Part shown: piece after piece, positions 7,963 through 61,189 of the stretch
Layout of the letters: each line of letters begins with the position of its first letter
How positions within the stretch are numbered: the stretch's first letter is position 1
From: a virus
Reading direction: 5' to 3' (one strand)
Virus record (IMG/VR): IMGVR_UViG_3300027856_000009
Span: 1 to 62,048 of that record
DNA length: 62,048 nt
Notes under the pieces: model-generated
What the model was told of the DNA's origin: nothing
Database searches by the model: none
Seen by the model: the letters and a program-made list of their open reading frames with translations, nothing else
Program-made: the position numbers and the translations under genes

Positions 7963-7968
7963 AGGCCC

Positions 7969-11112: not shown

Positions 11113-11158
11113 GGCTGAATCTTACACCGGACCCCGTTTTGCGACCAGACGTCAGCGC

Positions 11159-24800: not shown

Positions 24801-24809
24801 GCGGCTCAC
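21807..24809 (-). CDS. UvrD/Rep-type superfamily 1 helicase interrupted by an intein
   Basis: 1000 residues as encoded, about 682 after splicing. SF1 motifs are all visible: I VGAVAGAGKTTALVERV (37-53), Ia MISFSKSAAQQMKRRI (69-84), II VLQDE (248-252) continuing after the intein as CQDENEAQ, III MVVGDPAQAIFGFRGS, IV HRNYRSGIEI, V STVHKAKGMEWQVV and VI EERRLFYVACTRPKDEL. The intein splits motif II, so the helicase cannot work until it splices. The protein would unwind DNA 3' to 5' in replication or repair. It is coupled to a two-domain winged-helix protein upstream (ATG/TGA overlap) and to a zinc-motif protein downstream. Confidence 0.93.
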   Translation of the reverse strand: MSRYAEKTSRGDGVSDVPDLNPEQQLVVAHGSGPLRVGAVAGAGKTTALVERVVHLVRKKHVQPKRILMISFSKSAAQQMKRRIEKRLPGYDAGQCAKTFHSIGLRIFKAEGDPHDEKTIDTSGLLYLKAITKAYKALHLEPEKRIAKAFAGQVKNNLLGTTETLRRLGRLDGRMVRIAEDLAQGEALDAAMIIEAYFATEKIREHTGVEYNGMPVTFVTFDDMIYQAAMLLAKKDIRERWGERWSHVLQDECVVGDTPVLMADGTQRAIRDLVAEKCGGDVTTWSPSTGTVARPIISWAQKPVTKPMVRIVTKRASRNKDGSLTPYRSNSWTRANNICTRYLVCTDDHPVWTVNRGWVPAGELRPGDHVQHETGAEANLAYLNKYKIGVRGREILGALISQRNADGTCGTNQRGSSGPPTRGGNGHVAPAEEALLAKLNSCWQHNITVPLGWSGYPRSYKLDIADPERRVGIELDGNSHNSPSRREADLRKELLLRDRGWLLLRYSNAESYTLTDQMIEQDICRALGEGCPSDAVVLKAEPWIPNEPWVYDIGVSGTHAFYADGMLIHNCQDENEAQAAIAEALVHKHRNYMVVGDPAQAIFGFRGSRPEKMLGFEEQWPGAKTVIMHRNYRSGIEIVDLANRIMGHMPASTVITDDMGVAADMTSERQVHSYVGYHTFESPEDEADAVANNIVAHNKQGVRWDEQAVLMRMNFMTRAIEMSLATRGVPYKLVSGQSFFTMKETKILLGYLRAIGSRATADTIGDALMYPSRSIGRAFVKQVVEHGAKNGDWVPAVKATAQRTSAYQARNAVGWARLVEVWRTRGLGPADLLNLVRKDVKLDEWLSRNVDEGEDSKAVDNLNEVVAFARNYETVDAMIDAIDAIDRHRAANARKRNAVTISTVHKAKGMEWQVVYLIHVASGFFPGSRSDLNEERRLFYVACTRPKDELWVSMPCEIRGEEAGESRFTIAEAGLVEEKEYRVGIAMPGQVAVGTQMELV
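23100..24053 (-). mobile_element. Intein with a Vsr/DUF559-like endonuclease domain
   Basis: Residues 253-570 of the helicase (318 residues). Block A is CVVGDTPVLMADG with the Cys1 nucleophile. Block B includes CTDDHPVWTV. Block G is THAFYADGMLIHN, ending in His-Asn and followed by a Cys at +1. The insert between the splicing blocks lacks LAGLIDADG and HNH motifs. It carries VAPAEEALLAKLNS, then SYKLDIADPERRVGIELDG, NSH and RDRGWLLLRYS. That is the D-x(n)-E-x-D-G-x-x-H pattern of the PD-(D/E)XK DUF559/Vsr-like nucleases. It therefore looks like a full homing intein with an unusual nuclease. Confidence 0.9.
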
Positions 24810-41233: not shown

Positions 41234-43038
41234 CAGTTCATCGCCTCGTCTTGGAGGAGGTCTTCGGGCCAGTCATTGCTCTCGCCACGCTTTTCGCCCA
41301 TCCCCCGCCAGAGTTCCGAGGCTGAGTGGTAGCCCATCCCCGACATGTTTGAGCGGTCGATGTGAAGTAGCTGCCAGGCGTTGTTGCGAAGCGTCAACCC
41401 GTCCATGTCGGTGAAGTCGAACGAGACGTTCTGCGCCCTGCTGCCTTCGATGACAGCGTCGGTGAAGTCGCACCCGCTGAAGTCCACGTTCGCCAGCACG
41501 CACCGGTCGAAGTGCGCCTCGACGAAGCTGCAGTCGTTGAAGCTGTTTCCCTCGAAACGGGAGTCACGAAACAGTGCGTCCTCAAAAGAGCAGTCCTTGA
41601 TGCCCGAGCCGTCGGGCGTCCACCATGCGCCGGTCGCTACGCCCTCGTCCAAGACGGTGTTGTTGAAACTCGCCTTGTCAAAGGAGCAGTCGAAGAACTC
41701 CATGAGAGAGCAGCTCTGAAACGTCGTTTCCTCGAACCTGACGCCTTCCCACCCGTCACCACCTACGTTGCACTTCACAAAATGAGCGCCGCGGAAGTCC
41801 GCCTGGTCGAACGGCACGTCTTCCCACGCCCACTCGTCGGTGAAGTCGATGTCTCTGATGGTGTGCCCCTTGAACTGGATGGTCTGGTTCGGCATCGCGA
41901 CCATGAGGAGCCCGAGTGGGTCGGCGTCGAAGTATTCGTTGATGAACGCCTGGGCGTAGACCCGGTACTTCTCAGCCGGCATCTCGTTCTGCTTGCCACG
42001 GATCTGTACGAACTGCCCGAACTTGGTCAGCCCCGACCGGATGAAGTCGGCGGGGCGATCCCATACGTCGCGCGCGCCCAGCGGAACCGGCTCGATGACA
42101 GTGTCGGCAACGTCCTGGTCAAAGCCCCATGGCGCCGCCTCCCCCACGGCAGCGTCAAGCGCCTGAGTACCTTTGATCCAGCCCTCGGACTTGATGTTGG
42201 GGCGCCACTCGATCGTCGTGTGCGGCTTCCCCTTCGGGTCACGGAGCGAGTAGATGCGTACCTCGCCGTGCTGAACCTGCTCGCAGTACCCGCCGACGCA
42301 GTGGCCCATCACGTCGCCCTCGGCTTCGAGTTGCTCGCGCGACGTCAGGTCTTGAATCGTGTAGCCGTCGTCGAACTCCATGACGACTACGCCCTGCGGA
42401 ACACCGCTGCCGTAGTCGACCTCGAAGTCCTCGACGGCGGCGAGCGCGGTCGCGAGGTCCGTCTTGTTGAGGTCGACCTTCTCCTGTTCGGCCCACATGC
42501 CGATGACGGGCGCCTTCTTCTGGAGCGCCGCGACGGCGTCGTAGTAGTCCTGCGGCGTCACCTCGTTGTAGAAGTCCGCGCGGTCTGCCCACTCCCCATG
42601 GCGCTTCCCTGGGCCGTATTTCTTGTAGCTCTTGGCGACCGACTTATCGAGGCGTCCTAGCTCGCGCGCGACCCAGGGGATGACCACGTCGTGTGCGTGC
42701 CGCTCAGGAAGTGTCCCCTCCAAGAAGCCCGACATGATCGTCAGGATGGAGTCGTACTCGCGCCAGCCCTGGGGCGACAGCTCTTGCTGCGCGCCGCCGG
42801 GAACCACATCAAACCCACGCAAGGCCTGGTCCGCGCGGGAAATCCCGGCTGGCGATGGATACAGCTTGCGCAACGGGGTGTCGAACCGGCGCTGGTACTC
42901 CGAGACAGCGGAGTCGCGGCCGGTCAGGAGGAGTGCGACGGTGCCCACGTCAGGGATGATGCCTCTCCGGGGCGTGTCCTTGTACGCCTTGATGACGTGC
43001 TTCATCCGGCCGATCGGCTTGTTGGGTACGAGCGTCAT
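41233..43038 (-). CDS. PcfJ-like domain fused to pentapeptide repeats
   Basis: 601 residues from the ATG at 43038. The N-terminal third is helical. Residues 235-280 (EGDVMGHCVGGYCEQV, then EVRIYSLRDPKGKPHTTIEW) match the PcfJ signature of M-G-H-C-V-G-x-Y ... I-Y-S-L-R-D ... T-I-E. From about 400 to 565 there are pentapeptide repeats with [AS]-[DN]-[FL] steps (FDQADFRGAHFVKCNVGG, FQSCSLMEFFDCSFDKASFN, FEDALFRDSRFEGNSFNDCS, VLANVDFSGCDFTDAVIEGS), a right-handed quadrilateral beta-helix. PcfJ is a phage/conjugative-element protein of poorly known role. The fusion to a long pentapeptide helix is notable. Confidence 0.85.
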   Translation of the reverse strand: MTLVPNKPIGRMKHVIKAYKDTPRRGIIPDVGTVALLLTGRDSAVSEYQRRFDTPLRKLYPSPAGISRADQALRGFDVVPGGAQQELSPQGWREYDSILTIMSGFLEGTLPERHAHDVVIPWVARELGRLDKSVAKSYKKYGPGKRHGEWADRADFYNEVTPQDYYDAVAALQKKAPVIGMWAEQEKVDLNKTDLATALAAVEDFEVDYGSGVPQGVVVMEFDDGYTIQDLTSREQLEAEGDVMGHCVGGYCEQVQHGEVRIYSLRDPKGKPHTTIEWRPNIKSEGWIKGTQALDAAVGEAAPWGFDQDVADTVIEPVPLGARDVWDRPADFIRSGLTKFGQFVQIRGKQNEMPAEKYRVYAQAFINEYFDADPLGLLMVAMPNQTIQFKGHTIRDIDFTDEWAWEDVPFDQADFRGAHFVKCNVGGDGWEGVRFEETTFQSCSLMEFFDCSFDKASFNNTVLDEGVATGAWWTPDGSGIKDCSFEDALFRDSRFEGNSFNDCSFVEAHFDRCVLANVDFSGCDFTDAVIEGSRAQNVSFDFTDMDGLTLRNNAWQLLHIDRSNMSGMGYHSASELWRGMGEKRGESNDWPEDLLQDEAMN

Positions 43039-43742
43039 TCGAGGTCGTCTTCCGTGAGCCCGAGCCGCTTCATGTCCGAGGCGCCGCGGACGATGACCCA
43101 CAGGTCAGGTTCACCCGCGAGGTAGGCGCCGTAGGCCCGGTGGTTCCCGTCCCGCAGCTGGGCCGTGATCTTCCCGAGGTCACCCAGGTTCTGCTCGACC
43201 GCCTCGTCCGCGCGCTCGGTCATGTCGGCACGAATGGTGTCGGCGTCGTCATCGTCCGCCGCGTAGGTCTCGATGTAGTCGTCGGGGTTGGCGATGTACT
43301 CGTCCAGCTCCTCGTCCCCCGCCGTGAACGGGCGGGTCATCCCGTGCGACGCGAACAGCTCCTCGCGAGCCAACGCATGCAGCGACTCCTCGACGTCGTC
43401 TAGCGTGACGTCGCTGAGTAGTACCGGAGGCGCGTTGATGAGCGGCTTGTCGCCGGAGCCAATCAGCTCGGCGAACGCGAGGACTTTCCCGGGCTCGAAC
43501 GGGTTCCCGGGGGCAGCGTGGATCTGGTCCCAGTCGAGCTTCATCATGCGGCCCTCGGTGCCGACCCAGCGGACCTTCCGCCCGTTGTAGATGGCCCCGG
43601 GGTCAACGTCGTCCTCTTCGGGCAGCCAGCCCTCCTCCTGCATGCGGATCAGCAGGTCGTAGTCGGGCGACACGGAAGCGAACGCCTCACCCGCGTCGAA
43701 GAGGGGGTCACCGGCGTCTGGATTCTCGACCAGACGGGTCAC
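43035..43742 (-). CDS. Possible ParB/sulfiredoxin-like domain protein
   Basis: 235 residues. The C-terminal part reads ITAQLRDGNHRAYGAYLAGE, then PDLWVIVRG. The DGNHR-x-x-A/Y motif is the catalytic signature of ParB-like CTPase/nuclease domains and of sulfiredoxin. Only this motif is clear; the rest is acidic and unassigned. Coupled to the PcfJ-like gene and to a membrane metallopeptidase. Confidence 0.5.
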   Translation of the reverse strand: MTRLVENPDAGDPLFDAGEAFASVSPDYDLLIRMQEEGWLPEEDDVDPGAIYNGRKVRWVGTEGRMMKLDWDQIHAAPGNPFEPGKVLAFAELIGSGDKPLINAPPVLLSDVTLDDVEESLHALAREELFASHGMTRPFTAGDEELDEYIANPDDYIETYAADDDDADTIRADMTERADEAVEQNLGDLGKITAQLRDGNHRAYGAYLAGEPDLWVIVRGASDMKRLGLTEDDLE

Positions 43743-48344: not shown

Positions 48345-48673
48345 CACTTCGGGTAGATGCTCTTCACGTCGAGCTTCCCGTGTACGCGAGCATCTTCGAG
48401 CTTGCCCTTGTCGTCGTACTCGACGAAGGCAATCACCTGGCCCTCCTCGGTCATCGTGACCGTCTGAGCCTGGCCCGCGAAATACTCCTCGGGGTCACCC
48501 GGAAGGAGCATGTAGCCGCGCTTCATGTCGGCCTTGGCGCGTCTGTTCATCTCGTTCATCGCCCGCATGGCCGAGCCCAACCGAGCGTACTCGCGCACCT
48601 CCACGTCCTCGATGACACCGGTGGCACCCCAATGCAGCGCGTTGCGCGTCACTACGAATTGCTTGGCCATCAT
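48341..48673 (-). CDS. Small protein, unknown function
   Basis: 110 residues starting MMAKQFVVTRNALHWGATGV with a GGAGGG site upstream. Likely beta-alpha fold with helix RLGSAMRAMNEMNRRAKADM. Overlaps the end of the J-domain gene by four bases. Confidence 0.6.
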   Translation of the reverse strand: MMAKQFVVTRNALHWGATGVIEDVEVREYARLGSAMRAMNEMNRRAKADMKRGYMLLPGDPEEYFAGQAQTVTMTEEGQVIAFVEYDDKGKLEDARVHGKLDVKSIYPKW

Positions 48674-49239
48674 CCCTCCGGCGGCTGCCGCACCTTCAGC
48701 ATCACGTTGTAGGCCCGCATGACCTCCTGGAACTTCAGCTGCGCCTGCGCCTTCTGCGCTGACGTCGCGCTCGGCGGCAACCGGTCCGGGTGCCACTCCA
48801 TCGCGAGCTTGCGATAGGCCTTCTTAATCTGCTCGACGGTCGCGTCCTGCTTCACGCCGAGCACCTTCCAAGGGGGAGCCCCGGGCGGGCGTTGACGCTG
48901 CGGCTGCGGGCGGGCGCCCTGCGTCGGTGCAGTGCGGCGTGCGGCACCTTTCCCGAGGCGGGCGATCTTCTCCTTGGTGGCCAGCCAGAAGAACTTGAAG
49001 CAGTTGCGGCAGAGCCCGAATCCGTTGTCGGGATGCACCATCTCGATGTCGCCGAGCGCAAACTGGTTGCCGCAGCCCACACACGCGAACGCCTGGCGCT
49101 TGTACTCCTCCGAGAGTACTTCGACCTGCCCCGCCCGCAAGCCGGCCACGAAGCCAGACGCTTTGTGGAAGAGGCTGTCGACCGCCATGTCGACGGCTTC
49201 CTCCATGAAGTCGAGCCCGGCCGTCGGCCGCTTCGCCAT
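48670..49239 (-). CDS. J-domain co-chaperone with N-terminal zinc finger
   Basis: 189 residues from the ATG at 49239. C53-x-x-C56 (ACVGCGN) and C77-x-x-C80 (GLCRNCFK) form a zinc finger in the middle. A Pro/Arg linker leads to a C-terminal J domain (about 122-185): PPWKVLGVKQDATVEQIKKA, YRKLAMEWHPDRL with the HPD triad at 150-152. J proteins recruit and activate Hsp70. A virus-encoded one with a zinc finger probably directs host DnaK to virion assembly or to replication proteins. Confidence 0.88.
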   Translation of the reverse strand: MAKRPTAGLDFMEEAVDMAVDSLFHKASGFVAGLRAGQVEVLSEEYKRQAFACVGCGNQFALGDIEMVHPDNGFGLCRNCFKFFWLATKEKIARLGKGAARRTAPTQGARPQPQRQRPPGAPPWKVLGVKQDATVEQIKKAYRKLAMEWHPDRLPPSATSAQKAQAQLKFQEVMRAYNVMLKVRQPPEG

Positions 49240-49532
49240 CAGGGCGCCTCCAGCTCCCGTGCGAGAGCAATGATGAGGAGGTCGATGTCCTCGTCCGCGC
49301 CCACTGCCAGCTCGGGAACCAGGTGACCCTCGTCCTGGCGGTAGGGGGTATCTCCGAAGATGCCCCTCATCTGGTCCGCAAACGCAACCGCGTCCCGGAA
49401 GTGTTCGAGCATGAGCTTCGCGTTGCCGCGCCGCGCCGCCCCAAGAGCTAGCTGAGCGGCCTTCCTCATCCGCTTGTTGAGGCTCTTGATTTGACGGGTC
49501 GCCCGCCTGTCGTCTTTCTGTGTCCAGGCCAT
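49239..49532 (-). CDS. Small helical protein, unknown function
   Basis: 97 residues from the ATG at 49532, MAWTQKDDRRATRQIKSLNK. Basic N-terminal helix (NKRMRKAAQLALGAARRGNA) then an acidic C-terminal helix. One-base overlap with the J-domain gene. Confidence 0.6.
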   Translation of the reverse strand: MAWTQKDDRRATRQIKSLNKRMRKAAQLALGAARRGNAKLMLEHFRDAVAFADQMRGIFGDTPYRQDEGHLVPELAVGADEDIDLLIIALARELEAP

Positions 49533-49831
49533 CACAGCACTCCAATCACGCCCGTCAGCTGGGCATAGCTTGCGCCTCCGGGCACTCCCCCGCTCCACGT
49601 GCCGCTGAGCGTATCGTACGTACCAGGCGGAAGGGGGACCCGCTCGTAGCCGATGTGGTGCGAGTAGTTCATGGGCATGCCGACGTTGAAGCCGGGTCCC
49701 CAGCCGTAGGGGGAGTACACGGCGCCCGGCGGCGAGAAGCGCTGCGAGTACGGGTCGACGGCCTGCGCGAAGAGCTGCGTCGAGGTCATCGGGGGAAGCG
49801 GTCCCATTCCGAGTGCGCGGTGGTAGCTCAC
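49532..49831 (-). CDS. MSYHRALG-start Pro/Tyr-rich protein
   Basis: 99 residues from a GTG in a GTGA overlap. MSYHRALGMGPLPPMTS, then a Pro/Tyr/Gly-rich sequence (YSPYGWGPGFNVGMPMNYSH) without a membrane span. The composition suggests a surface-exposed extended structural protein. It carries the tag seen on membrane proteins but no membrane helix, which argues that the tag is not simply a membrane signal. Confidence 0.65.
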   Translation of the reverse strand: MSYHRALGMGPLPPMTSTQLFAQAVDPYSQRFSPPGAVYSPYGWGPGFNVGMPMNYSHHIGYERVPLPPGTYDTLSGTWSGGVPGGASYAQLTGVIGVL

Positions 49832-51250: not shown

Positions 51251-51943
51251 CTACCTCTTCAAATGGTCAATGATCTTGTCCATCTCCGTTTCGTTAGCGA
51301 GCCAACCGCTGATCTCGACCTCGAAGAGACGGAGGTCGAAACTCGGCGGCCGAAGGACGACCGCCGTAGCCTGAATGGTGTCGCCGGGCTGCGCGTACGC
51401 GGCAAAGTTCTCGTTGGGCATCCTCGGGGTAATGGACCCGGTGCCCTGGTGGATGCTGCCCTGTCCTGCGCGCGGCGCCGTGCCGCCCGCGGTCTGCGGA
51501 TTCACGAGGTCGATGGGCACACCGGTGCCAGGCAGGTTCGTCTGGAAGTCGGTGAGCCCGCGGTTCCCGAGGTTGAACTTGAAGCCGAGGTAGGTCTTCG
51601 ACCTCGACTCGGGCACCGCCACGATGTCCTCGATCCCAATCCCCGAGTGCTGGTAGGCGCTGAACTTCACCTCACGGAGGATGATCCCCTGGTGGGTCGG
51701 CGCCTGGATAGTGGCGATGGGGACATCCCGCGGGAAGGGCGGGAGCCCCGCGGCCTGGATGGGACGCGGGTACGTGGAGAAGAACTGCCGCTGGAAGAAG
51801 AGGCGCGTGCGGCCGGGAAGCGAAAAGGTGAAGCCGTTGACGATCCGAACCGCCACCGGCGTCTTACTCGGACGCGGATACCCCTGCGGCAGCGGCGACC
51901 GCTGCGTCGGAGAGGTGTTGCCGCGTCCGTCGTGGCGTCCCAT
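51251..51943 (-). CDS. Putative minor capsid protein, beta-rich
   Basis: 230 residues from the ATG at 51943. Beta-strand patterns dominate: IVNGFTFSLPGRTRLFFQRQ, VPIATIQAPTHQGIILREVK and FSAYQHSG, KTYLGFKFNLGNRG, GDTIQATAVVLRPPSFDLRL, then FEVEISGWLANE. No helix-rich or enzymatic motif is seen. With the two genes upstream it forms a group of three beta-rich proteins of jelly-roll size. Role as capsid, penton or spike protein is inferred from composition and context. Confidence 0.6.
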   Translation of the reverse strand: MGRHDGRGNTSPTQRSPLPQGYPRPSKTPVAVRIVNGFTFSLPGRTRLFFQRQFFSTYPRPIQAAGLPPFPRDVPIATIQAPTHQGIILREVKFSAYQHSGIGIEDIVAVPESRSKTYLGFKFNLGNRGLTDFQTNLPGTGVPIDLVNPQTAGGTAPRAGQGSIHQGTGSITPRMPNENFAAYAQPGDTIQATAVVLRPPSFDLRLFEVEISGWLANETEMDKIIDHLKR

Positions 51944-52226: not shown

Positions 52227-53153
52227 CTAAACCGCGGGGCTCTGGGCCTGAAGGATTTTGTAGCCGAGCATGGTGAAGTAGAGCGTACCGCCGATCGAGA
52301 CCGACACGCGGCCGATCTCGCCAGCCTGCGTCGGATCGGGCTGCGGCACCTGACCACCCTCGGCGAAGCCGTTGGCGAGCAGCGGGTAGTTGACCTCGGC
52401 GAAGCCCAGGTCCCGCGTCAGCGTCGCCGAGAAGCGCATCGTCGAGCCACGCTCGAAGAAGTCGCTCACCGGGAGGTAGAGCGGACGGTCGAACTCGCTG
52501 AAGAGGTAGCGCGACGGGATCGGCACCTGGTTCTGACGCAGGCGATCGGTGCCCTCGTCGGCGATCTCGAACAGGAAGTCGATCAGGCCGGGGCGGAGGG
52601 TCTGCACCGTCTGCGCGCCCGCGATGGTCTGAGGACCCATCGAGCCGCCGATGTACGCACCGGCGAACGGGTCGGCGGTTGACGCCACAGGGCGCCAGCG
52701 CCCCGTCAGCGGCGTGATGACCTCGGTACCCACCGGAGGGTCGTTCGGACGCCCGCTGTTCTGGTCACCGTACGGACCGAGCGAGTACGTCTTCATCAGG
52801 AAGGCGCTCAGGTAAGTCGTGCAGACGAACGGCCCGTCCATCGACACCTGCTTGGTGTCGCTGAGCCGCTGACCGGCGACCGTGGTCGCGGGCGCGGTCG
52901 GACCGGGGATGTTGATCTGGAAGGTCTGGAAGTAGGGCACCCGCTTGCCGGGGATGTCCTCGATGTACCGGATGCGCGCGGCGGCCTTCTTCAGGGCCTT
53001 GCGGAGCTTGCTCAGCTCGATCTTGTCGTCGGCCTGCTCACCGGCCATCGCCTTGTAGCGACGCAGGAGAGCTTCCATCTGCGCCTCGACGCGCTCGGTC
53101 CGGCTCGCCATCTTGCGGAGGTATTCGGCCATCCGCGGATCATCGTTCGCCAT
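52227..53153 (-). CDS. Putative major capsid protein (A)
   Basis: 308 residues with a GGGAGG site before the ATG. Residues 1-60 are a coiled coil (YLRKMASRTERVEAQMEALL, KIELSKLRKALKKAAARIRY). From 70 on the protein is beta-rich: YFQTFQINIPGPT, SMDGPFVCTTYLSAFLMKTY, GLIDFLFEIADEGTDRLRQN, VPIPSRYLFSEFDRPLYLPV, SDFFERGSTMRFSATLTRD and VSVSIGGTLYFTMLGYKIL. Length and strand pattern fit a jelly-roll capsid protein. It is flanked by structured DNA and by a second beta-rich gene. Confidence 0.62.
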   Translation of the reverse strand: MANDDPRMAEYLRKMASRTERVEAQMEALLRRYKAMAGEQADDKIELSKLRKALKKAAARIRYIEDIPGKRVPYFQTFQINIPGPTAPATTVAGQRLSDTKQVSMDGPFVCTTYLSAFLMKTYSLGPYGDQNSGRPNDPPVGTEVITPLTGRWRPVASTADPFAGAYIGGSMGPQTIAGAQTVQTLRPGLIDFLFEIADEGTDRLRQNQVPIPSRYLFSEFDRPLYLPVSDFFERGSTMRFSATLTRDLGFAEVNYPLLANGFAEGGQVPQPDPTQAGEIGRVSVSIGGTLYFTMLGYKILQAQSPAV

Positions 53154-53373: not shown

Positions 53374-54171
53374 CTAGAGGACGTCCCTGCTGTGAATACC
53401 GTCGATCAAGTACTTGATATCTTTGGCGATATCGTCGGACCCGGGAACGGTGAGACCATCGGTGCCCTGGACACCGCTGGTGATGACGGAAGCGGGGTCG
53501 AGATCAGACACCTGACCGTTGAGCTGCTCGATGAGTGAGGCGCCCACCGTCTGCCCGATGTTCGATGCGATCGCCACGACCTGGAAACCCTGCCGCGGCG
53601 GCACGAGAATCGGACGGGCCAGGCGCATGAGCGCGGCCGAGGTCGGGACGCCGTTGTTGGCGCGCGGGAGGCGCGTGTCGGCGAAGAAGCCGTCGAGACC
53701 ACCGGCCGCGGGGGTGTACGCGGTGAAGGTGGTGAGCTGCGGCTTGTCACCCGCGATGAACTGCCAGAAGAGCTGGTTCTCCGCCTGGTGGTAGAGCTTG
53801 TGTACCCTCTGGATGCGATCCGCCGTGACGGTCCCGATGGCACCGGCGACGTTCGCGATCTGCGGCTGGCTGCCGATCGGCTGCTGCGCCGCGGCCGCGT
53901 TCGCACGGGGGCTCTCCGCGTTGAAGCGGAAGTAGGTCCAGACGCGCACCGCGAGGGTGACAAAAGTCTGGTCGCTGGGAAAAAATCCCCCAGTTGTTAA
54001 ATTGGAAACCGCGACGTCGGCTCCCTGGCGCACGAAGAGCTGCGAGCGGGACTGGACCGCTCCGAAGACACCGACGTTGCCGGCGCGCAGGTCTCCCGCT
54101 CCATCTATGCGGATGAGGGAGTCGTAGAAGGGCTGGTGAACGCGCTCGCGCGTTCCGACGATCTTGGGCAT
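53374..54171 (-). CDS. Putative major capsid protein (B)
   Basis: 265 residues, MPKIVGTRERVHQPFYDSLI, with a purine-rich leader before the ATG. Beta-rich throughout: VGVFGAVQSRSQLFVRQGAD, TFVTLAVRVWTYFRFNAESP, LFWQFIAGDKPQLTTFTAY, RLARPILVPPRQGFQVVAIA. The only long helix is RIQRVHKLYHQAENQ. The absence of an HK97-type helical spine, and strands joined by long Pro/Gly loops, argue for a jelly-roll. It is the first gene of the capsid group and may be the most abundant product. Confidence 0.62.
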   Translation of the reverse strand: MPKIVGTRERVHQPFYDSLIRIDGAGDLRAGNVGVFGAVQSRSQLFVRQGADVAVSNLTTGGFFPSDQTFVTLAVRVWTYFRFNAESPRANAAAAQQPIGSQPQIANVAGAIGTVTADRIQRVHKLYHQAENQLFWQFIAGDKPQLTTFTAYTPAAGGLDGFFADTRLPRANNGVPTSAALMRLARPILVPPRQGFQVVAIASNIGQTVGASLIEQLNGQVSDLDPASVITSGVQGTDGLTVPGSDDIAKDIKYLIDGIHSRDVL

Positions 54172-54373: not shown

Positions 54374-55090
54374 CTACCTCATCCCTGCGAAGAGGTGACG
54401 AGAGAACATCCCGCCTGTGTATCCGAGGCCGCTCGTGGCCGTGGTGTTCTCGGCGACCGCCGCGTGCGTCAGGAGATGGCGGGGGGGACGTCCTCGCGGA
54501 CCCGCCTCGGGGGTCGGTGCCGACGCGATGACCTGCGGCAGTATCAGCGCGGGATGATCCAGGACGACTCGCTCCATCTCGCCCGGCCTCATCGGCATGG
54601 GCGCGGTGCCAGGAAGCGGCGCTGGAGCAGACGGAGGCCACGGCGCAACACCGGGATCGCCGACCACCTGACAGGCCGGGTCCGCCCGACACGCGGCATC
54701 GTCAGCAGCGCGCTGGGCTGCCATCTCCGCCTGAGCTGCGGGGCTCGCAGTGGCGGTCATCGCCAGAGCCATGAACTCCCCCATCATCGGGGCGAGCACC
54801 GGCATGCACTCCGGCGGCGGCTCGGAGCCAATCAAGTCAACGAAACAGCGCTTTCGGTCTCCGGCGCCCGAACAGTGGCGCATGTACATGGCCCGAAGCG
54901 TCGCGATGTCCATTCCCGGAGGGATATCGGCTGCGTCCTTCGGCAGGGCGTCCCACTGGGCGGCGCACTGGGCGTCCTCGACGGGAACGCCGTTGCCGTT
55001 GGCGCCGTTCTCACTGCTCTTCTTCCAGAGCCACCAGGCCCCGACGCCCGCGGCGCCGACAAGCAGCCAGTTCATTGGGGTCATCTTCAT
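54374..55090 (-). CDS. Membrane-anchored virion-type protein with GYxGG...RHLFAGM tail
   Basis: 238 residues. N-terminal transmembrane helix MNWLLVGAAGVGAWWLWKK, an Asn-Gly linker and a Cys-containing domain (about 40-150: AQCAAQWDALPKDAA, RHCSGAGDRKRCF, PPECMPVL, DAACRADPACQVV). A Pro-rich stretch contains PLPGTAPMPMRPGEMERVV, and the final tag is GLGYT-GGMFSRHLFAGMR. The helix, linker, PGEM motif and tag are shared with the next two genes. Likely a spike or membrane-linking virion protein. Confidence 0.75.
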   Translation of the reverse strand: MKMTPMNWLLVGAAGVGAWWLWKKSSENGANGNGVPVEDAQCAAQWDALPKDAADIPPGMDIATLRAMYMRHCSGAGDRKRCFVDLIGSEPPPECMPVLAPMMGEFMALAMTATASPAAQAEMAAQRAADDAACRADPACQVVGDPGVAPWPPSAPAPLPGTAPMPMRPGEMERVVLDHPALILPQVIASAPTPEAGPRGRPPRHLLTHAAVAENTTATSGLGYTGGMFSRHLFAGMR

Positions 55091-55363
55091 GTCATCCCCG
55101 CGAAGAGGTGTCGGGCGTAGATACCGCCCGCGTAGCCCATGCCATCAGGCGTGGACCGCACGACATCGACCATCTCGCCCGGCGCCATGTCGGGCGGCAC
55201 GGGCACGGGCGGCACGGGCACGGGCACGGGCGGCACGGGCACGATCGCCGCGCCGTTACCGTTGCCGTTGCCGTTGCCGTTCTGGCTCTGCTTGTAGAGC
55301 CACCAGGCCCCGACGCCCGCAGCGCCGACAAGCAACCAGTTCATTGGGGACATCTTCATGTCA
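55027..55363. repeat. 68-bp direct repeat encoding the same membrane helix
   Basis: 55027-55094 and 55296-55363 differ at only three of 68 bases. Each copy encodes the start of a protein, from the ATG codons to MNWLLVGAAGVGAWWL. The genes at 54374 and 55087 therefore arose by a recent duplication of at least their 5' ends, while the rest has diverged. Confidence 0.85.
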
Positions 55364-55368
55364 GCCAC
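55087..55368 (-). CDS. Small membrane-anchored protein with YAGGIYARHLFAGM tail
   Basis: 93 residues (a start at 55359 removes three). N-terminal helix MNWLLVGAAGVGAWWLYK, an unusual NGNGNGNGNG linker, a Val/Pro repeat (VPVPPVPVPVPPVPVPP), then PDMAPGEMVDVV and the C-terminal GYAGGIYARHLFAGMT. It is the minimal version of the modular architecture: anchor, linker, PGEM motif and tag. The repetitive linker could be a stalk. Confidence 0.78.
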   Translation of the reverse strand: MADMKMSPMNWLLVGAAGVGAWWLYKQSQNGNGNGNGNGAAIVPVPPVPVPVPPVPVPPDMAPGEMVDVVRSTPDGMGYAGGIYARHLFAGMT

Positions 55369-56203
55369 CCATCATCCCGGAGAAGAGATGCCGGGCGTAG
55401 ATGCCGCCCGCGTGACCACGATCACCGCGCGAGCCGGCGAAGCGCTCCGTCACCCGCCGGACCTGCGGGAAGTTGGTGGCCGGGAGAGCCCAGCCGGTGG
55501 GGATGACGGTGGAGACGGGCTCGACCCGGTCCATCGTCGCCTCGACCGCGGCCTGATCGGCGGGGTCGCCGAGCGAGCCGAGCATCGACTGCGAGTAGTA
55601 CGCGGAGAGCCCGTCGCCGGACTCCTCGGCCGACTCCGCGGCGGGGGCGACGACGTCGACCATCTCACCCGGCGCCATGTCCAGGGGAGCGGTGCCGGGG
55701 AGCGGTGCCACACCGTTCCCGTTCCCGTTCCCGTTGGTCAGCGCTGCCGCCGCGCGACCTCCGCCGAGCATCGGGGTGTCGCGAAGGTAGGCCTCGGCCG
55801 CCGCGAGTCCCATCCCGAGCACGATGGCCCCGGAGTTCTTCGCGAGCATGCCGCCCTTCATCGAGCGGGCGCCCGCGAAGACGGCCGGGATGCCGACCGC
55901 CGCGGCGATCAGCTTCCCGGTCTTGGGGTCGGTGGTCCCCCAGTCCTCCATCGCCACCATGTTGCCCAGGTAGCGCGCGGCCATGAAACCGGCCGTCGCA
56001 CCGAGTACCGGCACGACAACCGTCTTCACGAGGTCGGCACCGAAGACGTTGCGACGCAACCTCCGGCGACGACTGCTACGCCGCTTGCTGCTGCGCCGAC
56101 GCCGACGCCGATTGGCGACCACGTACCTGGGGTTGCGCGTGGACCGCCTCCGCCGGCTGCTCCGGCGGCGGCTGGTCCTACGACTGCGACGACGACGTGC
56201 CAT
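55361..56203 (-). CDS. Arg-rich virion-type protein with YAGG...RHLFSGM tail
   Basis: 280 residues. The first 55 are Arg/Ser-rich (SRRTSRRRSSRRRRSTRNPR, then YVVANRRRRRR). A membrane segment follows (about 56-75: DLVKTVVVPVLGATAGFMAA) with glycine zippers. Then come an NGNGNGNG linker, PLPGTAPLDMAPGEMVDVV, a helical domain, and the tail HAGGIYARHLFSGMMGG. The Arg region plus the ADLVKTVVVPVLG helix is paralogous to the C-terminal part of the 921-residue protein. Probably binds the genome to the membrane. Confidence 0.75.
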   Translation of the reverse strand: MARRRRSRRTSRRRSSRRRRSTRNPRYVVANRRRRRRSSKRRSSRRRRLRRNVFGADLVKTVVVPVLGATAGFMAARYLGNMVAMEDWGTTDPKTGKLIAAAVGIPAVFAGARSMKGGMLAKNSGAIVLGMGLAAAEAYLRDTPMLGGGRAAAALTNGNGNGNGVAPLPGTAPLDMAPGEMVDVVAPAAESAEESGDGLSAYYSQSMLGSLGDPADQAAVEATMDRVEPVSTVIPTGWALPATNFPQVRRVTERFAGSRGDRGHAGGIYARHLFSGMMGG

Positions 56204-56237
56204 GGGTTCTCCTCAGAAGGTTCTCAGCGCGGAGCGC

Positions 56238-59003
56238 CTAGAACATCCCCGCGAAGAGGTGCCGAGCGTAGAGGCCACCGGCGTAGCCCTTGCCCTCGGG
56301 GGTCACCAGGCTGGTCGGGACCGGACGCGCGTAGGGCATCGTGCGGTTGACCGGCAGCGCCAGGTCGGTGGGGGTGTGGATGGACGCGAAGGGAGGCTGC
56401 TCCCGGGCGTACATCTTCTTGAGGCGCTGGTCCTCTTCCGCGCCGAGACCGGCAGCGGCGTAGAGGGTTCCCATGCCCGCGGCGGCTTCCATGACCTGAC
56501 CGGTGCCGGCGGCGGCCTCCATCACGTCCATGAGGCCGTCGACGCCCGCCATGTTGGCGGGATCGACACCCTCGGCGTACCCCGCGGTGGCGTACTCGGT
56601 ACCGAGGCCCGCGGCGGCGTAGAGCGTGTTGCCCAGGCCGCTGAGGGGCTGGTCGACATACTCACCGAAGCCGGGGGTCTCGACGTACGCGCCGAGGCCG
56701 TTGAGAGGCGAACTGACGTACTCGCCCAGGCCGTTGAGAGGCGAACTGACGTACTCGCCCATGCCGTTGAGCGGCGAGCTGACGTACTCGCCGAACCCAC
56801 CGCTGAGGTAGGCCGCGGCGTCACCGGTCACGCGGCCGAGCAGCCGGTCGGTGAGCGCGAGGCCCATGCCGGTGATCAGCGCACCCTGGTTGTCCTTGAT
56901 CACCTTCACCTTGGTCGAGAGACCGAGAGTGGCGATGATGCCGAGCACGTTCGCGGCGATCTTCGTGTTCTCCGCGTCGGCGGCCGGCTTGTCCTTGTCG
57001 AGGATGCCCCGGATCGCCTCGATGTTCGCGAGACCGTTCGAGAGGAAGCGGGCCGCGACGAAGCCTGCGGTGCCACCGATGACCGGCGTCACCACGTCCT
57101 TCATCAGGTCGGCGCCGAAGAACTGGTTGCGACGCAACCTCCTCCGCCTGCCACGACGCCGGTTCGCGACCACGTACCTGGGGTTGCGCCGCGTCCTACG
57201 GCGCCTGCTGTTCCTGCGCATGCTCGTCCTCCGGTTCTTCGACACGCGACGCCGCGGGTGCCTCTTGCGCTCCGCGTAGCCAGAAGTCTTGGCCCTGCGG
57301 TGCGAATCCTTGGCCGCCCCACCGAAGCGATACTTGCGCACGTACGCGCGCTCGCTGACGCTGGCGGGAATGAGCACGGGGTAGCCCGTGAGCCTCTTGC
57401 GACGCCCCTTCTTGTCGGGGCGCCCCTTGCTCTTGGGGCCGTACTCCACGACCTGATAGAGACGTCCGCGCGCCCGGCCCATCCGGTACTTCCCGCGTCC
57501 GCCGTACTTCACCTTCGAGGCAGCCAGCATGTTGCGACTCAGCCTCCTCCTGCTCCGCCTGCGGCGGCTGCCGCGACGGCTCGTGCGACGCGACCTGCGC
57601 CGACGGTTCCTGTAGAGCCCAGGCCTGCTCCTGCGACGCCTGCTGCTCCGACGCCTGCTGCTCCGACGCCGACGCCGGTTGGCCGTCATGCGACGAGCGC
57701 GAGTCCCGCGGTGGCTTGCACCGATCGCGCGCGAGCGGCGACCGCCCTTGCGCGAGGTCCGGCGCTTCGAGAGCCGTCCGCGCCCCTTGGCGATCGGGTA
57801 GCTGAGGATGGAGGGACGTCCCGAGCGATGCTTCGAGGAGCGCCGCACGCGAGCGACGGCCGGCATGTACCCCTTGCTCAGATACTTGTCGACGTATTCG
57901 CGACCCGTGCGCCTGACGCGCCGCCGACCCATGTAGTAGCCGCTCGACGCCCGGCGCCTGCTGCCACGACGCGAGCTGCGCCTCCGACGCGCCTTGCCGC
58001 GCGACGTACGCCTCTTGGGTGCCGTTCCGGCCCGACGCGAGCGGGCCGCCTTGCTCGTCCGCTTCTTGTACGCCGCGACACCGCGGCGAGCCTCCGAGCG
58101 AGTCACGCGGAGCTTGGTCCCCTTGACCCGACGCGTCGAGCGCCTCTTCCGCCACCCCTTCAGAGCTGCGGCGCGCCGCGAAGCCTTCGTCGACCGACGC
58201 TTGCTCCCGCGCCTGCTGGTGCGCGCCTTGCCCTTGCCCGACGCCCGACGACGCTTCGCCCAGCCCTTCTTCGCGGCCGCGCTACGCGACGCCTTCGTCA
58301 TGCGACGCTTGCCTCCGCGTTTGCTGGTGCGCTTGGAGGACCTCCTCTTCTTCTTGCCGAAGGTGCGCTCCCAGCCACCGCGATAGGCCGCGCTGTTGCG
58401 CCTCACGCGACGACGCCCACGGCGGCTCGTCCGGCGACGGCCGCTGCGCCTCCGCCTGCTGGTCCGCTTGCTCGTCCGCCTCCGCCTGTTGGCCGTGGGC
58501 CTCCGACGACGCGTGCCGCTGCGCTTGGTGTTGCGCTTCGGCTTACGCCGACGGCCAGGGGACGAGACCTTGACGCCCCGAGACCCCGCCCGCTCCGAAA
58601 CGGCGCTTCCGCTCCGTCCGCGAGGGTTGGACCGCATGGCGCGACGCAGGGCTCCGATGTTGTAGGCCATTCCGCTCCTCCTGTTACTCAGCAGCTTCTT
58701 GCTGACGGGACGTGTAAGGATCGTGCCCTTGTCGTCCACGGGATAGAGACGAGCGTCCGACTTCGGATGTCGCTTCTTCCAGCCCAGCGCCTGCTTCAAC
58801 GATTTGTACTTTGGACTCGCGTGCCGATGCCGCTGTCCGCGCCCCTCGACCCACTGAAGAGGGTTCTCGGACACCCGGCGCCGACGGCGCCCGCTCGGGT
58901 TCACCACCGTGAGGTGCGAGACCCCCGGATTGGGCTCCATGCCTGGAGAGCGCTCGTAGGCTCGCGCCTTCGTCGTGTCGCTCGATTTGTAGACCAGTGC
59001 CAT
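56238..59003 (-). CDS. Very large Arg/Lys-rich protein, three in-frame modules, YAGGLYARHLFAGM tail
   Basis: An uninterrupted frame of 921 residues. Module 1 (1-111) is basic, ends KKLLSNRRSG. Module 2 starts at M112 (AYNIGALRRAMRSN), a variant of the MSY tag, and is Arg/Lys/Ser-rich with two copies of KASR-x-AAA-x-KGW-x-KRR. Module 3 starts at M595 (RRNSRRRRTRRNPRYVVANR), has the ADLMKDVVTPVIGGTAGFVA membrane segment, 11-residue repeats (GEYVSSPLNGL) and ends in GYAGGLYARHLFAGMF. Strong ribosome sites (AGGAGGAG before 58670, GGAGG before 57221) lie in frame, so 810- and 327-residue forms could also be made. It resembles a histone-like genome-condensing protein. Confidence 0.75.
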   Translation of the reverse strand: MALVYKSSDTTKARAYERSPGMEPNPGVSHLTVVNPSGRRRRRVSENPLQWVEGRGQRHRHASPKYKSLKQALGWKKRHPKSDARLYPVDDKGTILTRPVSKKLLSNRRSGMAYNIGALRRAMRSNPRGRSGSAVSERAGSRGVKVSSPGRRRKPKRNTKRSGTRRRRPTANRRRRTSKRTSRRRRSGRRRTSRRGRRRVRRNSAAYRGGWERTFGKKKRRSSKRTSKRGGKRRMTKASRSAAAKKGWAKRRRASGKGKARTSRRGSKRRSTKASRRAAALKGWRKRRSTRRVKGTKLRVTRSEARRGVAAYKKRTSKAARSRRAGTAPKRRTSRGKARRRRSSRRGSRRRASSGYYMGRRRVRRTGREYVDKYLSKGYMPAVARVRRSSKHRSGRPSILSYPIAKGRGRLSKRRTSRKGGRRSRAIGASHRGTRARRMTANRRRRRSSRRRSSRRRRSRPGLYRNRRRRSRRTSRRGSRRRRSRRRLSRNMLAASKVKYGGRGKYRMGRARGRLYQVVEYGPKSKGRPDKKGRRKRLTGYPVLIPASVSERAYVRKYRFGGAAKDSHRRAKTSGYAERKRHPRRRVSKNRRTSMRRNSRRRRTRRNPRYVVANRRRGRRRRLRRNQFFGADLMKDVVTPVIGGTAGFVAARFLSNGLANIEAIRGILDKDKPAADAENTKIAANVLGIIATLGLSTKVKVIKDNQGALITGMGLALTDRLLGRVTGDAAAYLSGGFGEYVSSPLNGMGEYVSSPLNGLGEYVSSPLNGLGAYVETPGFGEYVDQPLSGLGNTLYAAAGLGTEYATAGYAEGVDPANMAGVDGLMDVMEAAAGTGQVMEAAAGMGTLYAAAGLGAEEDQRLKKMYAREQPPFASIHTPTDLALPVNRTMPYARPVPTSLVTPEGKGYAGGLYARHLFAGMF
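56700..56798 (-). repeat. Tandem 33-bp repeat encoding GEYVSSPLNGL units
   Basis: Three consecutive 33-base units, nearly identical, encode the 11-residue pattern G-E-Y-V-S-S-P-L-N-G-L/M. Diverged units (GAYVETP, GEYVDQPLSGL) flank them. The repeats lie in the C-terminal half of the large basic protein and could form an extended beta or spike-like element. Confidence 0.8.
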
Positions 59004-59188: not shown

Positions 59189-59677
59189 TCAGGTCTTCGG
59201 CTCAACACCGCCGCCCACTGCCGCCGGCATGAGCGAATCGGCACTTCGAGGGCGCGTAGCGGAACGCGGAAGCGAGCGCTCGATGGACGCCATCCGCCTG
59301 TTCATCTGCTCGATGGCTTCGCGCATCTTCTGGGTCTCGTCGCGGTCCGACCACCACTTCGGGCGGAGATTTTCGTCGAGCGCTTTCGGTCCCAGGTGGA
59401 TCGCGTGAAGCTCGTCGGTCTGGTCGGCAATCCTGATCACACGCTCGCTCAGGGTGGCCAGGACAGTCGACACGCTGCCGAGCGCAGTCGTGATGTTGGC
59501 GAGCGAGGTGGCTACCTCGCCCATCACCGCCTCGGCCGTCTTCGGCGCGCCGTCGCGCTTGTCGGCCTGCGTCTTCTGCCACTGAATGATCTTCCCGACG
59601 AACTGGAAGGTCAGGAAGAGCACGGCCAGGACGAACATGCCCCACGCTGGAATCTCGGCCCCGTCGATACCACTCAT
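59189..59677 (-). CDS. Single-span coiled-coil protein
   Basis: 162 residues from the ATG at 59677. N-terminal membrane helix (about 9-27: AWGMFVLAVLFLTFQFVG), then a Ser/Thr/Ala-rich helix (VMGEVATSLANITTALGSVS, TVLATLSERVIRI) and a further coil (QKMREAIEQMNRRMASIERS). Topology like fusion- or assembly-type coiled-coil membrane proteins. ATGA overlap with the gene before it. A GC-rich stretch and the structural promoter follow. Confidence 0.7.
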   Translation of the reverse strand: MSGIDGAEIPAWGMFVLAVLFLTFQFVGKIIQWQKTQADKRDGAPKTAEAVMGEVATSLANITTALGSVSTVLATLSERVIRIADQTDELHAIHLGPKALDENLRPKWWSDRDETQKMREAIEQMNRRMASIERSLPRSATRPRSADSLMPAAVGGGVEPKT

Positions 59678-60444
59678 CCGTCGATCCCGTCCTTCAGCAC
59701 GCGCAGCTTGCCGCCGGCCATCGCGCCGAGGAATCCCGACGAACCGTCCGGCTGCTTCTGCGGCGAATACAGCAGAAGAAGATTCCCCGACGGAGAGCTG
59801 AAAAGATAGCAACCCCGAGGGTTTACCTCGTACGTCTCACCGTCATCATCGCGGCGGATGAAGACGCCCAGGCAGTAGCCCAGGAGCGCGATCGCCTTCG
59901 GACGCGCGACCGGCAGGCGCTGGCCACGGGCCGAGCTGCGGCGCTGACGACCGACGCGGCTCCGCGGCGCCTCCGCCGCCGGCTCGTAGAAACGCACCCC
60001 TTTCGCGACGGGGTAGGGCTTGTCATCGCCGGCATCGTGGAGGTGCTTGTAGTCCTCGTCGGTGCCATCGGACTTCCACTTGTCGGTCCGGTACATGACC
60101 CCCAAGGCGTCCCCCACCCGCACCCACTCGGTCGGGACATCGTGGTCCAGCTCGGCCACGCGGATGGGGGTCTTGTCGTGGAAGATCTCGTAGCGATCCA
60201 TGGCCGCGTCGAGCGCGTTGCCGCGGACCGCATCGGGGTCGATGTCGTCGCCGAAGCGCGTGTCCATCGAGGCACCACGGAGGCGGCTCGCGCGGTTTGG
60301 CGTCATGCCGTCGGCAGCTGTCGAATCGACCAGGCGTTCGGCCAAGGTCATCGGCCGCCGCCAATGTCGGGGGGCTGAGCGCGACGGAGGCGCGCTGTTG
60401 GGCTCCAGAAGGGGACGGGATGTACGGCGGCGACGGATCTTCAC
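59674..60444 (-). CDS. Protein of unknown function with Arg-rich N-terminus
   Basis: 256 residues from a GTG in a GTGA overlap. A basic start (MKIRRRRTSRPLLEP) precedes a soluble domain (about 40-256) with VAELDHDVPTEWVRVGDALG, VMYRTDKW and a Gly/Tyr-rich part (YEVNPRGCYLFSSPSGNLLL). No motif recognised. Between two membrane proteins. Confidence 0.6.
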   Translation of the reverse strand: MKIRRRRTSRPLLEPNSAPPSRSAPRHWRRPMTLAERLVDSTAADGMTPNRASRLRGASMDTRFGDDIDPDAVRGNALDAAMDRYEIFHDKTPIRVAELDHDVPTEWVRVGDALGVMYRTDKWKSDGTDEDYKHLHDAGDDKPYPVAKGVRFYEPAAEAPRSRVGRQRRSSARGQRLPVARPKAIALLGYCLGVFIRRDDDGETYEVNPRGCYLFSSPSGNLLLLYSPQKQPDGSSGFLGAMAGGKLRVLKDGIDG

Positions 60445-60782
60445 TTCTTGTCCTTCCACCAGAACCAGCCAGTAGCCACGGCGACGCCGACAGCGAACAT
60501 GAGCCACCCGTTGCCCGTGACGCCGGTGGAGCGGCCCGCGTCGTCACCGTTGTCGCCGAGAGCGCCCGACCGGCGCCTCACCTCGCCGCGCGCGAGGTGG
60601 TCGTAGCCTATGAGGCGCGCGTTGGAGGGGAGCGCCTTCACGCCGGTGCTCGGGGCCGCACCGATAGCGGAATCGCCGGAGGAGCTGTGCGGCAGGGGGT
60701 CGTCGCCGACGCTGACGGGAGTGGGCGTTCGATAGACGCCCCACGCGTTGCGATCCCAGTCCCAGACAGAGTAGAGGGCCAT
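60441..60782 (-). CDS. Single-span protein, putative virion membrane protein
   Basis: 113 residues with GAGGAATCTAAG before the ATG. MALYSVWDWDRNAWGVYRTP, then a Ser/Gly/Pro-rich stretch and a C-terminal transmembrane helix (about 92-108: GWLMFAVGVAVATGWFWW) ending in KDKK. The start resembles the MSY tag only loosely. Confidence 0.65.
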   Translation of the reverse strand: MALYSVWDWDRNAWGVYRTPTPVSVGDDPLPHSSSGDSAIGAAPSTGVKALPSNARLIGYDHLARGEVRRRSGALGDNGDDAGRSTGVTGNGWLMFAVGVAVATGWFWWKDKK

Positions 60783-60817: not shown

Positions 60818-61189
60818 CTACCACGCAGACAGCAGGGGGAGCATTCCTGGATGCAGCGGATCGGGCAAGTCGCCGGCCGCAAACCACCCGGCGCGATCGT
60901 TCTCCCAGTTGAGACGCGGGCGGAACTCGCGAGGCACACTCCCGACGAAGTGGTGGAAAACACGCTTCTTCTCGTGCTGGGTGCCAGCCGGCTCCAGGCG
61001 CATCGGACCGCCGTACCGCGTCTCCTCGCGAAACTCACGCACCGCGGCCTGGAGCGGGTTCTCGCCCCGGTCCAGTCGACCCGCCGGGCAGGCCCACAGG
61101 CCCGACTTCGGCACCTCACGACTGCGCCTGAGCAAGAGGATGCGGCCCGTCGTGTTCGCGACGACGGTGATGCCTGCTGCCGACCGCAT
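60818..61189 (-). CDS. Nudix hydrolase
   Basis: 123 residues. The Nudix box lies at residues 37-57: GRLDRGENPLQAAVREFREE, with G37, E43, R51, E52, E55 and E56 in place, though the usual Gly after the box is replaced by Arg. The N-terminal GITVVANTTGRILLLRRS is the first strand pair of the fold. It would hydrolyse a nucleoside diphosphate linked to another group, for example an oxidised nucleotide, ADP-ribose or a capped RNA end. Phages use such enzymes to clean nucleotide pools or alter RNA ends. Confidence 0.9.
   Translation of the reverse strand: MRSAAGITVVANTTGRILLLRRSREVPKSGLWACPAGRLDRGENPLQAAVREFREETRYGGPMRLEPAGTQHEKKRVFHHFVGSVPREFRPRLNWENDRAGWFAAGDLPDPLHPGMLPLLSAW

Follow-up and report, generated by a model that had tools for sequence, protein, structure and literature searches.

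The 62,048-nucleotide viral sequence IMGVR_UViG_3300027856_000009 from IMG/VR (here, the window, analysed over its whole length) carries four neighbouring minus-strand open reading frames, A1, A2, B1 and B2, which have in common a 15-residue C-terminal tag, GY[AT]GG[ILM][YF][AS]RHLF[AS]GM (Table 1). An earlier note on this DNA had described four adjacent proteins of 93 to 921 residues that end in one tag; all four frames, their ends and their sizes were confirmed. GC3 is 79-88% in the tagged frames, as coding DNA here should show, and an overlapping plus-strand frame of 1141 residues is probably spurious because its GC3 is 63%. Three capsid-type genes lie 3' of the tagged cluster, and two further conserved genes lie upstream of it.

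Table 1. Features of the tagged cluster and its flanking genes (positions in the window).
Feature	Position	Strand	Length	Description
Conserved upstream gene	60444..60782	-		Hydrophobic C-terminal end; 28 relatives, order kept
Conserved upstream gene	59677..60507	-		...LRVLKDGIDG; 28 relatives, order kept
A1	56238..59003	-	921 aa	Arg/Ser-rich N part, hydrophobic helices, GEYVSSPLNGLG and AAAGxG repeats, C-terminal tag
A1 tag	56244..56288	-	15 aa, 45 nt	GYAGGLYARHLFAGM, then F and stop
A2	55361..56203	-	280 aa	Arg-rich head, hydrophobic domain, linker, tag; shorter paralogue of A1
A2 tag	55373..55417	-		GHAGGIYARHLFSGM, then MGG; leading G present here also
B1	55087..55368	-	93 aa	N-terminal hydrophobic head MKMSPMNWLLVGAAGVGAWWLYK, NG/Pro linker, PGEM, tag
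B1 tag	55093..55137	-		GYAGGIYARHLFAGM, then T
B2	54374..55090	-	238 aa	Head nearly as in B1, own middle part, PGEM, tag
B2 tag	54380..54424	-		GYTGGMFSRHLFAGM, then R
Capsid-type protein 1	53374..54171	-	265 aa	First gene 3' of tagged cluster; lowest identity among relatives 28%
Capsid-type protein 2	52227..53153	-	308 aa	N-terminal coiled coil and beta domain; 35 relatives
Capsid-type protein 3	51251..51943	-	~230 aa	31 relatives 3' of protein 2; start provisional (longest ORF starts at 52357)

Placement and distribution of the tag

The profile search that had been proposed for the tag was run as a PSSM scan over the window plus the contigs of four relatives (approximately 0.83 Mb, 1.29 million frame positions), together with a relaxed pattern search of IMG/VR. 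In the scan, 12 tags scored 44-55 bits and all were C-terminal; the best non-tag sites, at 25.7 and 22.5 bits, were both internal. High scores are expected of a PSSM trained on the same 12 tags, and the informative results are the score gap and the C-terminal placement. The tag is no chance match. Between 0 and 3 residues separate it from the stop in every scored case, which upholds the claim that it always stands at the extreme C-terminus, and C-terminal placement recurs in further relatives (L010, L011, L026, L087 and L088). Across IMG/VR, the relaxed pattern was C-terminal solely in contigs of one viral clade, where the true tags adjoin capsid-type genes; matches outside the clade, such as the toprim-like AGGLFGRDLF, were internal and were judged to be chance. 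No other gene carries the tag across four contigs of 150-298 kb.

The tag falls outside every recognised domain, so that it is not the internal part of a known fold, which the earlier note had allowed for, and the statement that it belongs to no described family stands: searches of the tagged and capsid-type proteins against Pfam, PHROGs and PDB sequences gave no convincing or significant match. Likewise, tblastn of proteins 1, 2 and A2 against 50,697 phage records, and of protein 2 against 72,556 plasmid records, returned no match, and no cultured member of the virus group was found in the collections searched.

Two types of carrier

Two types of carrier can be distinguished from the paralogy of A1 and A2 and from the N-terminal head common to B1 and B2. 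The description of the four proteins as otherwise different therefore holds for their sizes and not for their relationships. A1 and A2 are paralogues, with an Arg-rich, hydrophobic and tail layout in both, and the hydrophobicity of A1 is modest. A2 was found in L009, L010, L011, L012, L013, L014 and L087, and seven related sequences bear the tag on both A1 and A2; the only match to A2 from the database search covered 16 residues of a contig that is unrelated and has no tag. The heads of B1 and B2, which score under the hydrophobicity threshold used, are identical at 69 of 75 nucleotides and recently duplicated; A1 has little in common with B1 and B2 except the terminal ~16 residues. No B1 was seen among the relatives read and no relative of B2 was found in the viral contigs searched, and judged by these comparisons B1 and B2 are private to the window, whereas A1 and A2 are not. 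The motif PGEM-[VE]-x-VV, previously remarked upon in three of the four proteins, is indeed present in A2, B1 and B2; it is a local duplication, private to the window because none of six A2 relatives read has it.

The C-terminal third of A1 is homologous between two clades (hhalign E 2.4e-23), and A1 of the distant clade ends in a conserved terminal peptide of its own, e.g. PAGILQGPGGNGVLSG. Homology of the two tails was not supported, the alignment covering the C-terminal third and stopping before the tail. Nor was a tail common to several proteins supported in the distant clade, where one carrier was seen in each of the 20-kb loci; hence sharing of a tag is shown for one clade only.

The capsid-type module

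In more than 30 contigs, mostly of 60-300 kb, A1 adjoins three capsid-type genes, and in nearly all of the 30+ loci an orthologue with the same anatomy lies immediately upstream of the protein 1-type gene. Protein 2, modelled by AlphaFold at pLDDT 77, gave weak Foldseek matches (best PDB E 0.015, TM about 0.25), many of which are jelly-roll capsid proteins, including HHIV-2, SH1 and vaccinia D13; a single jelly roll is probable from this model. The AlphaFold model of protein 1 (15 sequences) was beta-rich and, at pLDDT 42, unusable. Frames with hydrophobic segments are commoner near the module (28/124) than elsewhere (88/812; Fisher p 6e-4). In L021, two genes with SLT transglycosylase domains and hydrophobic C-terminal ends lie just upstream of it.

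None of terminase, portal and FtsK/HerA motor was consistently found. The FtsK/HerA-type ATPase (PF01580) was absent above cut-off from 13 records; for PF01935, 22 virus records yielded a single match above cut-off, in G014 of the distant clade, and two MAGs also matched, whereas the window and the close-clade virus records did not. The terminase large subunit (PF03237) was absent from 13 records, with phrog_2, a second test for terminase, matching weakly in 1 of 22 virus records (E 1.4e-4), and the portal (PF04860) from 19 records.

Selection, co-variation and function

The tag is under purifying selection. Its pN/pS is 0.24 in A1 and 0.37 in A2, compared with 0.39-0.88 in upstream segments, and constraint covers all 15 residues. 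Where tags have the same residue, synonymous codons are identical in 0.52 of cases both within and between genomes; since they differ equally in the two comparisons, the A1 and A2 tags were not recently copied from one another. A1 and A2 tags are more alike within a genome (11.8 of 15 residues) than between genomes (10.5 of 15; 16/720 permutations, or 50/5040 with L010 added); the 6-7 genomes compared lack phylogenetic independence. Co-variation is mainly at position 10 (H/H, N/N, N/N, H/H), which is H in all four tags of the window. Residues that are alike within a genome without matching codons are as would be seen for two ligands of one receptor; self-association among the tagged proteins would also be expected to produce co-variation.

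With moderate confidence, we favour reading the tag as a C-terminal docking peptide, a short linear motif that would fasten virion proteins to one capsid or vertex site. The co-variation of A1 and A2 tags within genomes makes docking on a common partner the best fit among the three functions suggested in the earlier note. An inherited tail of the A1 family, serving for instance in its own fold or oligomer interface with no partner in trans, and passed to A2, B1 and B2 as these were built from pieces of A1, we think unlikely. The paralogy of A1 and A2, the PGEM linker common to A2, B1 and B2, the conservation of an A1 tail in both clades and the adjacency of the tag-bearing genes would all suit such descent, but it does not readily account for the retention of the tag by B1 and B2 with little else of A1, for a peptide kept despite turnover of synonymous codons, or for co-variation within genomes.

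It is more improbable still that the tag is a sorting signal, directed to the host or to a membrane, which would send its carriers to a membrane or assembly site and stand outside the particle lattice. Hydrophobic segments do occur in the carriers and are enriched around the module; however, these modules also encode hydrophobic-segment proteins that are untagged, as is every other gene of the four large contigs, and signals of the sortase and PEP-CTERM type consist of a hydrophobic helix and a basic tail, which the tag lacks. A maturation site near the C-terminus, cut or removed by a protease during assembly, was another of the suggested functions and is very improbable: proteases of this kind are frequent in large virus particles and the motif is Gly/Ala-rich, but the site fits poorly because so few residues follow the tag that a cut in or after it would free almost nothing, and constraint is not confined to one scissile pair. 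That the tag reflects recent duplication or gene conversion in one element, with no selected function, is barely credible, for although the near-identical heads of the private B1 and B2 would agree with it, it is contradicted for A1 and A2 by the tags in seven related sequences, and further opposed by codons no more alike within genomes than between them, by B1 and B2 tags identical at merely 35 of 45 nucleotides and by a tag pN/pS lower than in any of the upstream segments measured.

If the tag is a docking peptide, the Arg-rich N part of A1 and A2 may bind and condense the genome, with their hydrophobic helices embedded in an internal membrane or lying against it. The flexible Gly-rich repeat tail would reach out to the capsid shell or vertex and present the terminal peptide to a single receptor site there, so tying core to shell during assembly. 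That the tagged proteins are part of the virion, that there is a membrane and what serves as the receptor are the inferred elements of this scheme. A2 derives from A1, or both from a common ancestor, and the small B1 and B2, with their N-terminal hydrophobic heads, would have gained the same peptide in this lineage, a gain that suggests a portable tag.

Relation to known systems

Encapsulation via short C-terminal peptides has been described for enzyme cargos and shells of the HK97 fold (PMC8346489). As in family 1 encapsulins, where it recruits to one shell protein, a short conserved C-terminal peptide is found here on several proteins; the carriers in our case are instead Arg-rich or hydrophobic-segment proteins near probable jelly-roll capsid proteins. 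In PRD1/PR772 (Tectiviridae), P16 is the membrane anchor of the vertex complex, and the extended P30 contacts vertex proteins through its C-terminal Gly84, with a hydrophobic interaction with P5 (PMC6750898). By analogy we propose a comparable anchoring role, although P16 has a single transmembrane helix, P30 has about 84 residues, and PRD1 builds its capsid from a DJR protein and possesses a packaging ATPase.

Helvetiavirae and Sphaerolipoviridae have SJR capsids and an FtsK/HerA-type pATPase (PMC8328091); viruses of the Helvetiavirae kind are marked by a pair of MCPs, both single jelly rolls. Likenesses are the several adjoining capsid-type genes, one a probable single jelly roll, and the putative internal membrane; in contrast, the window and its close relatives have no FtsK/HerA ATPase above cut-off, the contigs are mostly 60-300 kb, and no significant sequence match was found in solved structures. 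Borgs, which are large, encode SJR capsid-like proteins that are often nearest HCIV-1, and in most of them no packaging ATPase was confidently found (PMC12660748). They differ in being archaeal, of megabase size and bounded by inverted repeats at their termini, and the passages of that source consulted mention no tag. The collections searched yielded no identifiable Borg sequence. The virus group resembles Helvetiavirae and Borgs, but no packaging ATPase was consistently found in it.

It is possible, if doubtful, that these contigs come from large viruses, probably tailless, whose lineage has not been described and which have jelly-roll capsid proteins and no recognisable packaging motor, and in which a DNA-condensing core is held to the shell by a universal, exchangeable C-terminal peptide. 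This raises the question of how DNA is packaged in contigs of up to 298 kb without a consistent terminase or FtsK/HerA motor, and we speculate that packaging might be driven by condensation, with the Arg-rich A1 as one candidate component. If the tag is a portable means of particle entry, any protein that gains its 15 residues would enter the particle, such that new virion components, as with B1 and B2, could be added; proteins could be loaded into a jelly-roll shell as encapsulin targeting peptides load theirs, and the tag would predict which uncharacterised proteins belong to the virion.

Results

A terminal peptide confined to the ends of its proteins

The four tagged genes of the window (A1, A2, B1 and B2) are real open reading frames that terminate, as the earlier note had said, in a shared 15-residue C-terminal peptide (the tag). 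The window, a virus record of IMG/VR, has a G+C content of 66.5% over 62,048 bases, and third-position G+C (GC3) of 79–88% supports the four minus-strand frames; a plus-strand ORF of 1141 aa that overlaps them is probably spurious. We built a position-specific matrix from 13 tags and used it to scan the window and the contigs of four relatives (160, 298, 153 and 162 kb) in all six frames. Twelve sites scored 44.1–54.8, each 0–3 residues from a stop, and the runner-up sites reached 25.7 and 22.5, at 258 and 122 residues from a stop; the matrix being derived from these very tags, the evidence lies in the score gap and the position rather than in the height of the scores. Four tagged proteins were found in the window and exactly two in each of the four relatives. 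A pattern scan of IMG/VR returned five stretches from four contigs, all of the same clade, and a relaxed scan returned 13, of which seven came from the clade and were all C-terminal (read or previously known). In the other six relaxed matches the motif lies 83–424 residues ahead of the frame end.

Coordinates of features in the window and its relatives
Sequence	Feature	Position	Strand
Window	A1, tagged	56238-59003	-
Window	A2, tagged, shorter paralogue of A1	55361-56203	-
Window	B1, tagged	55087-55368	-
Window	B2, tagged	54374-55090	-
Window	Capsid-type gene 1	53374-54171	-
Window	Capsid-type gene 2	52227-53153	-
Window	Capsid-type gene 3	51251-51943	-
Window	NUDIX hydrolase	60818-61189	-
Window	DnaJ-domain protein	48670-49545	-
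Window	PcfJ-like protein with pentapeptide repeats	41233-43101	-
Window	UvrD-type helicase	21807-24809	-
Window	tRNA-Arg gene	2195-2268	+
Window	Tyrosine recombinase fragment	3-989	-
L009	ORF similar to NUDIX hydrolase	4018-4392	
L009	LAGLIDADG-like ORF	10831-12117	
L010	LAGLIDADG-like ORF	8740-10410	
L011	LAGLIDADG-like ORF	6877-7998	
L012	LAGLIDADG-like ORFs	9323-9928, 10807-11865	
L026	LAGLIDADG-like ORF	9383-9982	
L021	SLT transglycosylase-domain genes	6047-6727, 6733-7401	

Conservation of the gene module

The product of capsid-type gene 1 has IMG/VR relatives down to 28% identity and is also matched in four contigs from MAGs, whose labels (Deltaproteobacteria, Planctomycetota, Methanomicrobiales and Pseudomonadota) may stem from binning and are not read as hosts. 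The gene order of the surrounding module is conserved: two upstream genes come first, then A1, which in most close-clade members is followed by A2, and finally three consecutive capsid-type genes. In the close clade, comprising the window and the related loci L009–L014, L025/L026, L087 and L088, the A1 tag is of the GYAGG[ILV][FY] type or has drifted from it (GYESGLFSGTIFSGM, GHAGGIFGANLFAPM); A2 was not found in the L026 and L088 stretches read. In the remoter relatives of the distant clade A1 carries a different conserved terminal peptide, for example PAGILQGPGGNGVLSG or SAGIMETGGNQGVFG. The C-terminal thirds of A1 are homologous between the clades (hhalign 99.5%, E 2.4e-23), but the match ends ahead of the tails and so does not show these to be homologous.

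The NUDIX hydrolase of the window has a similar ORF in the same place in L009, and the DnaJ-domain gene lies near the capsid-type module. Several relatives have ORFs resembling LAGLIDADG homing endonucleases (WLAGI[VI]DGEGCF, LGA[VI][FY]GDG; family assigned by eye), placed either in the interval from A1/A2 to capsid-type gene 1 or in the one separating capsid-type genes 1 and 2.

Anatomy of the tagged proteins

The N-terminal half of A1 is basic (R+K 0.27–0.44 across relatives). Next come a helical part of moderate hydrophobicity, a tail of low charge whose repeats include GEYVSSPLNGLG and AAAGxG, and finally the tag; A2 follows the same plan, shortened. B1 and B2 consist of an N-terminal hydrophobic head, a linker, PGEM and the tag, their heads being identical at 69 of 75 nucleotides. 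The PGEM motif, previously noted in three of the four proteins, is indeed common to A2, B1 and B2 in the window, but is missing from the A2 relatives read. No B-type genes were seen between A2 and the capsid genes in the relatives read, and no relative of B2 turned up when one was searched for.

A second recurrent motif, D[IV]xxxGxPYxGM-like (e.g. YDISHAGAPYKGMLGLG), occurs in the A2 linker of L010, L012, L013 and L014 and in A1 of L088, and is missing from the A2 of the window. A hydrophobic-segment start, [PTM]NW[LM]xxG[AG][AG], is common to L018, L030, L032, L033, L088 and window 54377-55368; it is N-terminal in B1/B2, but in the relatives it belongs to other proteins and lies close to their C-terminal ends.

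Selection on the tag

Across six genomes the pN/pS of the tag is 0.24 in A1 and 0.37 in A2; four upstream segments give 0.39–0.75 and 0.55–0.88 respectively. Codons for the same residue are identical in 52% of cases both within and between genomes, so recent gene conversion does not account for the likeness between the A1 tag and the A2 tag of one genome. The reading of the tag as a product of recent duplication is contradicted for A1/A2. The two tags agree at 11.8 of 15 positions within a genome and at 10.5 between genomes, a level reached in 16 of 720 permutations (50 of 5040 with L010 included). Most of this excess comes from position 10, where each of the four window tags has H. Such co-variation is the pattern expected of two ligands of one receptor and, given a small sample of related genomes, is taken as suggestive.

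Capsid-type genes and the search for packaging genes

The model of capsid-type protein 2 was usable (pLDDT 76.9). The structures it matches best in PDB score weakly (E 0.015 and up, TM about 0.25), but many of them are capsid or scaffold proteins with a jelly roll (vaccinia D13, papillomavirus L1, polyomavirus VP1, HHIV-2, SH1), and its BFVD matches include many capsid proteins (best E 5e-4); the modelled fold is probably a jelly roll, short of proof. Packaging genes were sought in 13 records (terminase PF03237; FtsK/HerA PF01580), 19 records (portal PF04860) and 22 virus records plus two MAGs (phrog_2; PF01935). Bar a sub-threshold PF01580 match in record G004 (E 4.7e-4), neither the window nor any close-clade virus record searched gave a terminase, portal or FtsK/HerA; this is no proof of absence, since the records may be fragments. 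One distant-clade contig, G014, matches phrog_2 (1.4e-4) and PF01935 (1.2e-9).

ORFs with hydrophobic segments are enriched at distances of up to 12 kb from capsid-type gene 1 (28/124 versus 88/812, p 6e-4). In the relative L021, tandem SLT transglycosylase-domain genes directly upstream of A1 have identical hydrophobic, basic C-terminal ends (GAYLAWRKMRKAQRLPVPV).

Other genes of the window

The UvrD-type helicase scores weakly for an intein splicing domain (E 1.4e-4, below cut-off) and has a DUF559/MTES_1575-type nuclease domain in that stretch; it probably carries an intein with a Vsr/DUF559-like endonuclease. At one end of the contig a fragment of a tyrosine recombinase lies close to the tRNA-Arg gene, a possible integration module. 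A PcfJ-like gene is also present.

Discussion

The simplest account is that the tag is a docking peptide that would bind a common shell or vertex site. The basic domain would engage DNA and the hydrophobic domain a membrane, with a flexible repeat tail between the latter and the terminal peptide; we infer the binding, as we do incorporation into the particle, the membrane and the receptor. There are precedents for both elements of this scheme: PRD1-type P16 and P30 provide bridging and C-terminal vertex contact (PMC6750898), and in encapsulins short C-terminal peptides bring different proteins to one shell (PMC8346489). Rival readings take the tag for a family tail acting in cis, for a sorting signal or for a protease site, or see in it the trace of recent duplication, which is contradicted for A1/A2.

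Phage and plasmid records gave no match, Pfam, PHROGs and PDB no convincing one, and the open-access literature searched no description of the tag or module. Helvetiavirae are defined by having two capsid proteins with a single jelly roll (SJR), and an FtsK/HerA pATPase is present in Sphaerolipoviridae (PMC8328091); this ATPase was looked for here and not found at threshold in the window or the close-clade records searched, hence the element is not filed under Helvetiavirae. Borgs, too, have SJR capsid-like proteins and for the most part lack a confidently identified packaging ATPase (PMC12660748). The tag is a real, selected, clade-wide C-terminal peptide of docking type, whose partner would be a common site, and the element that carries it apparently belongs to an undescribed virus group.
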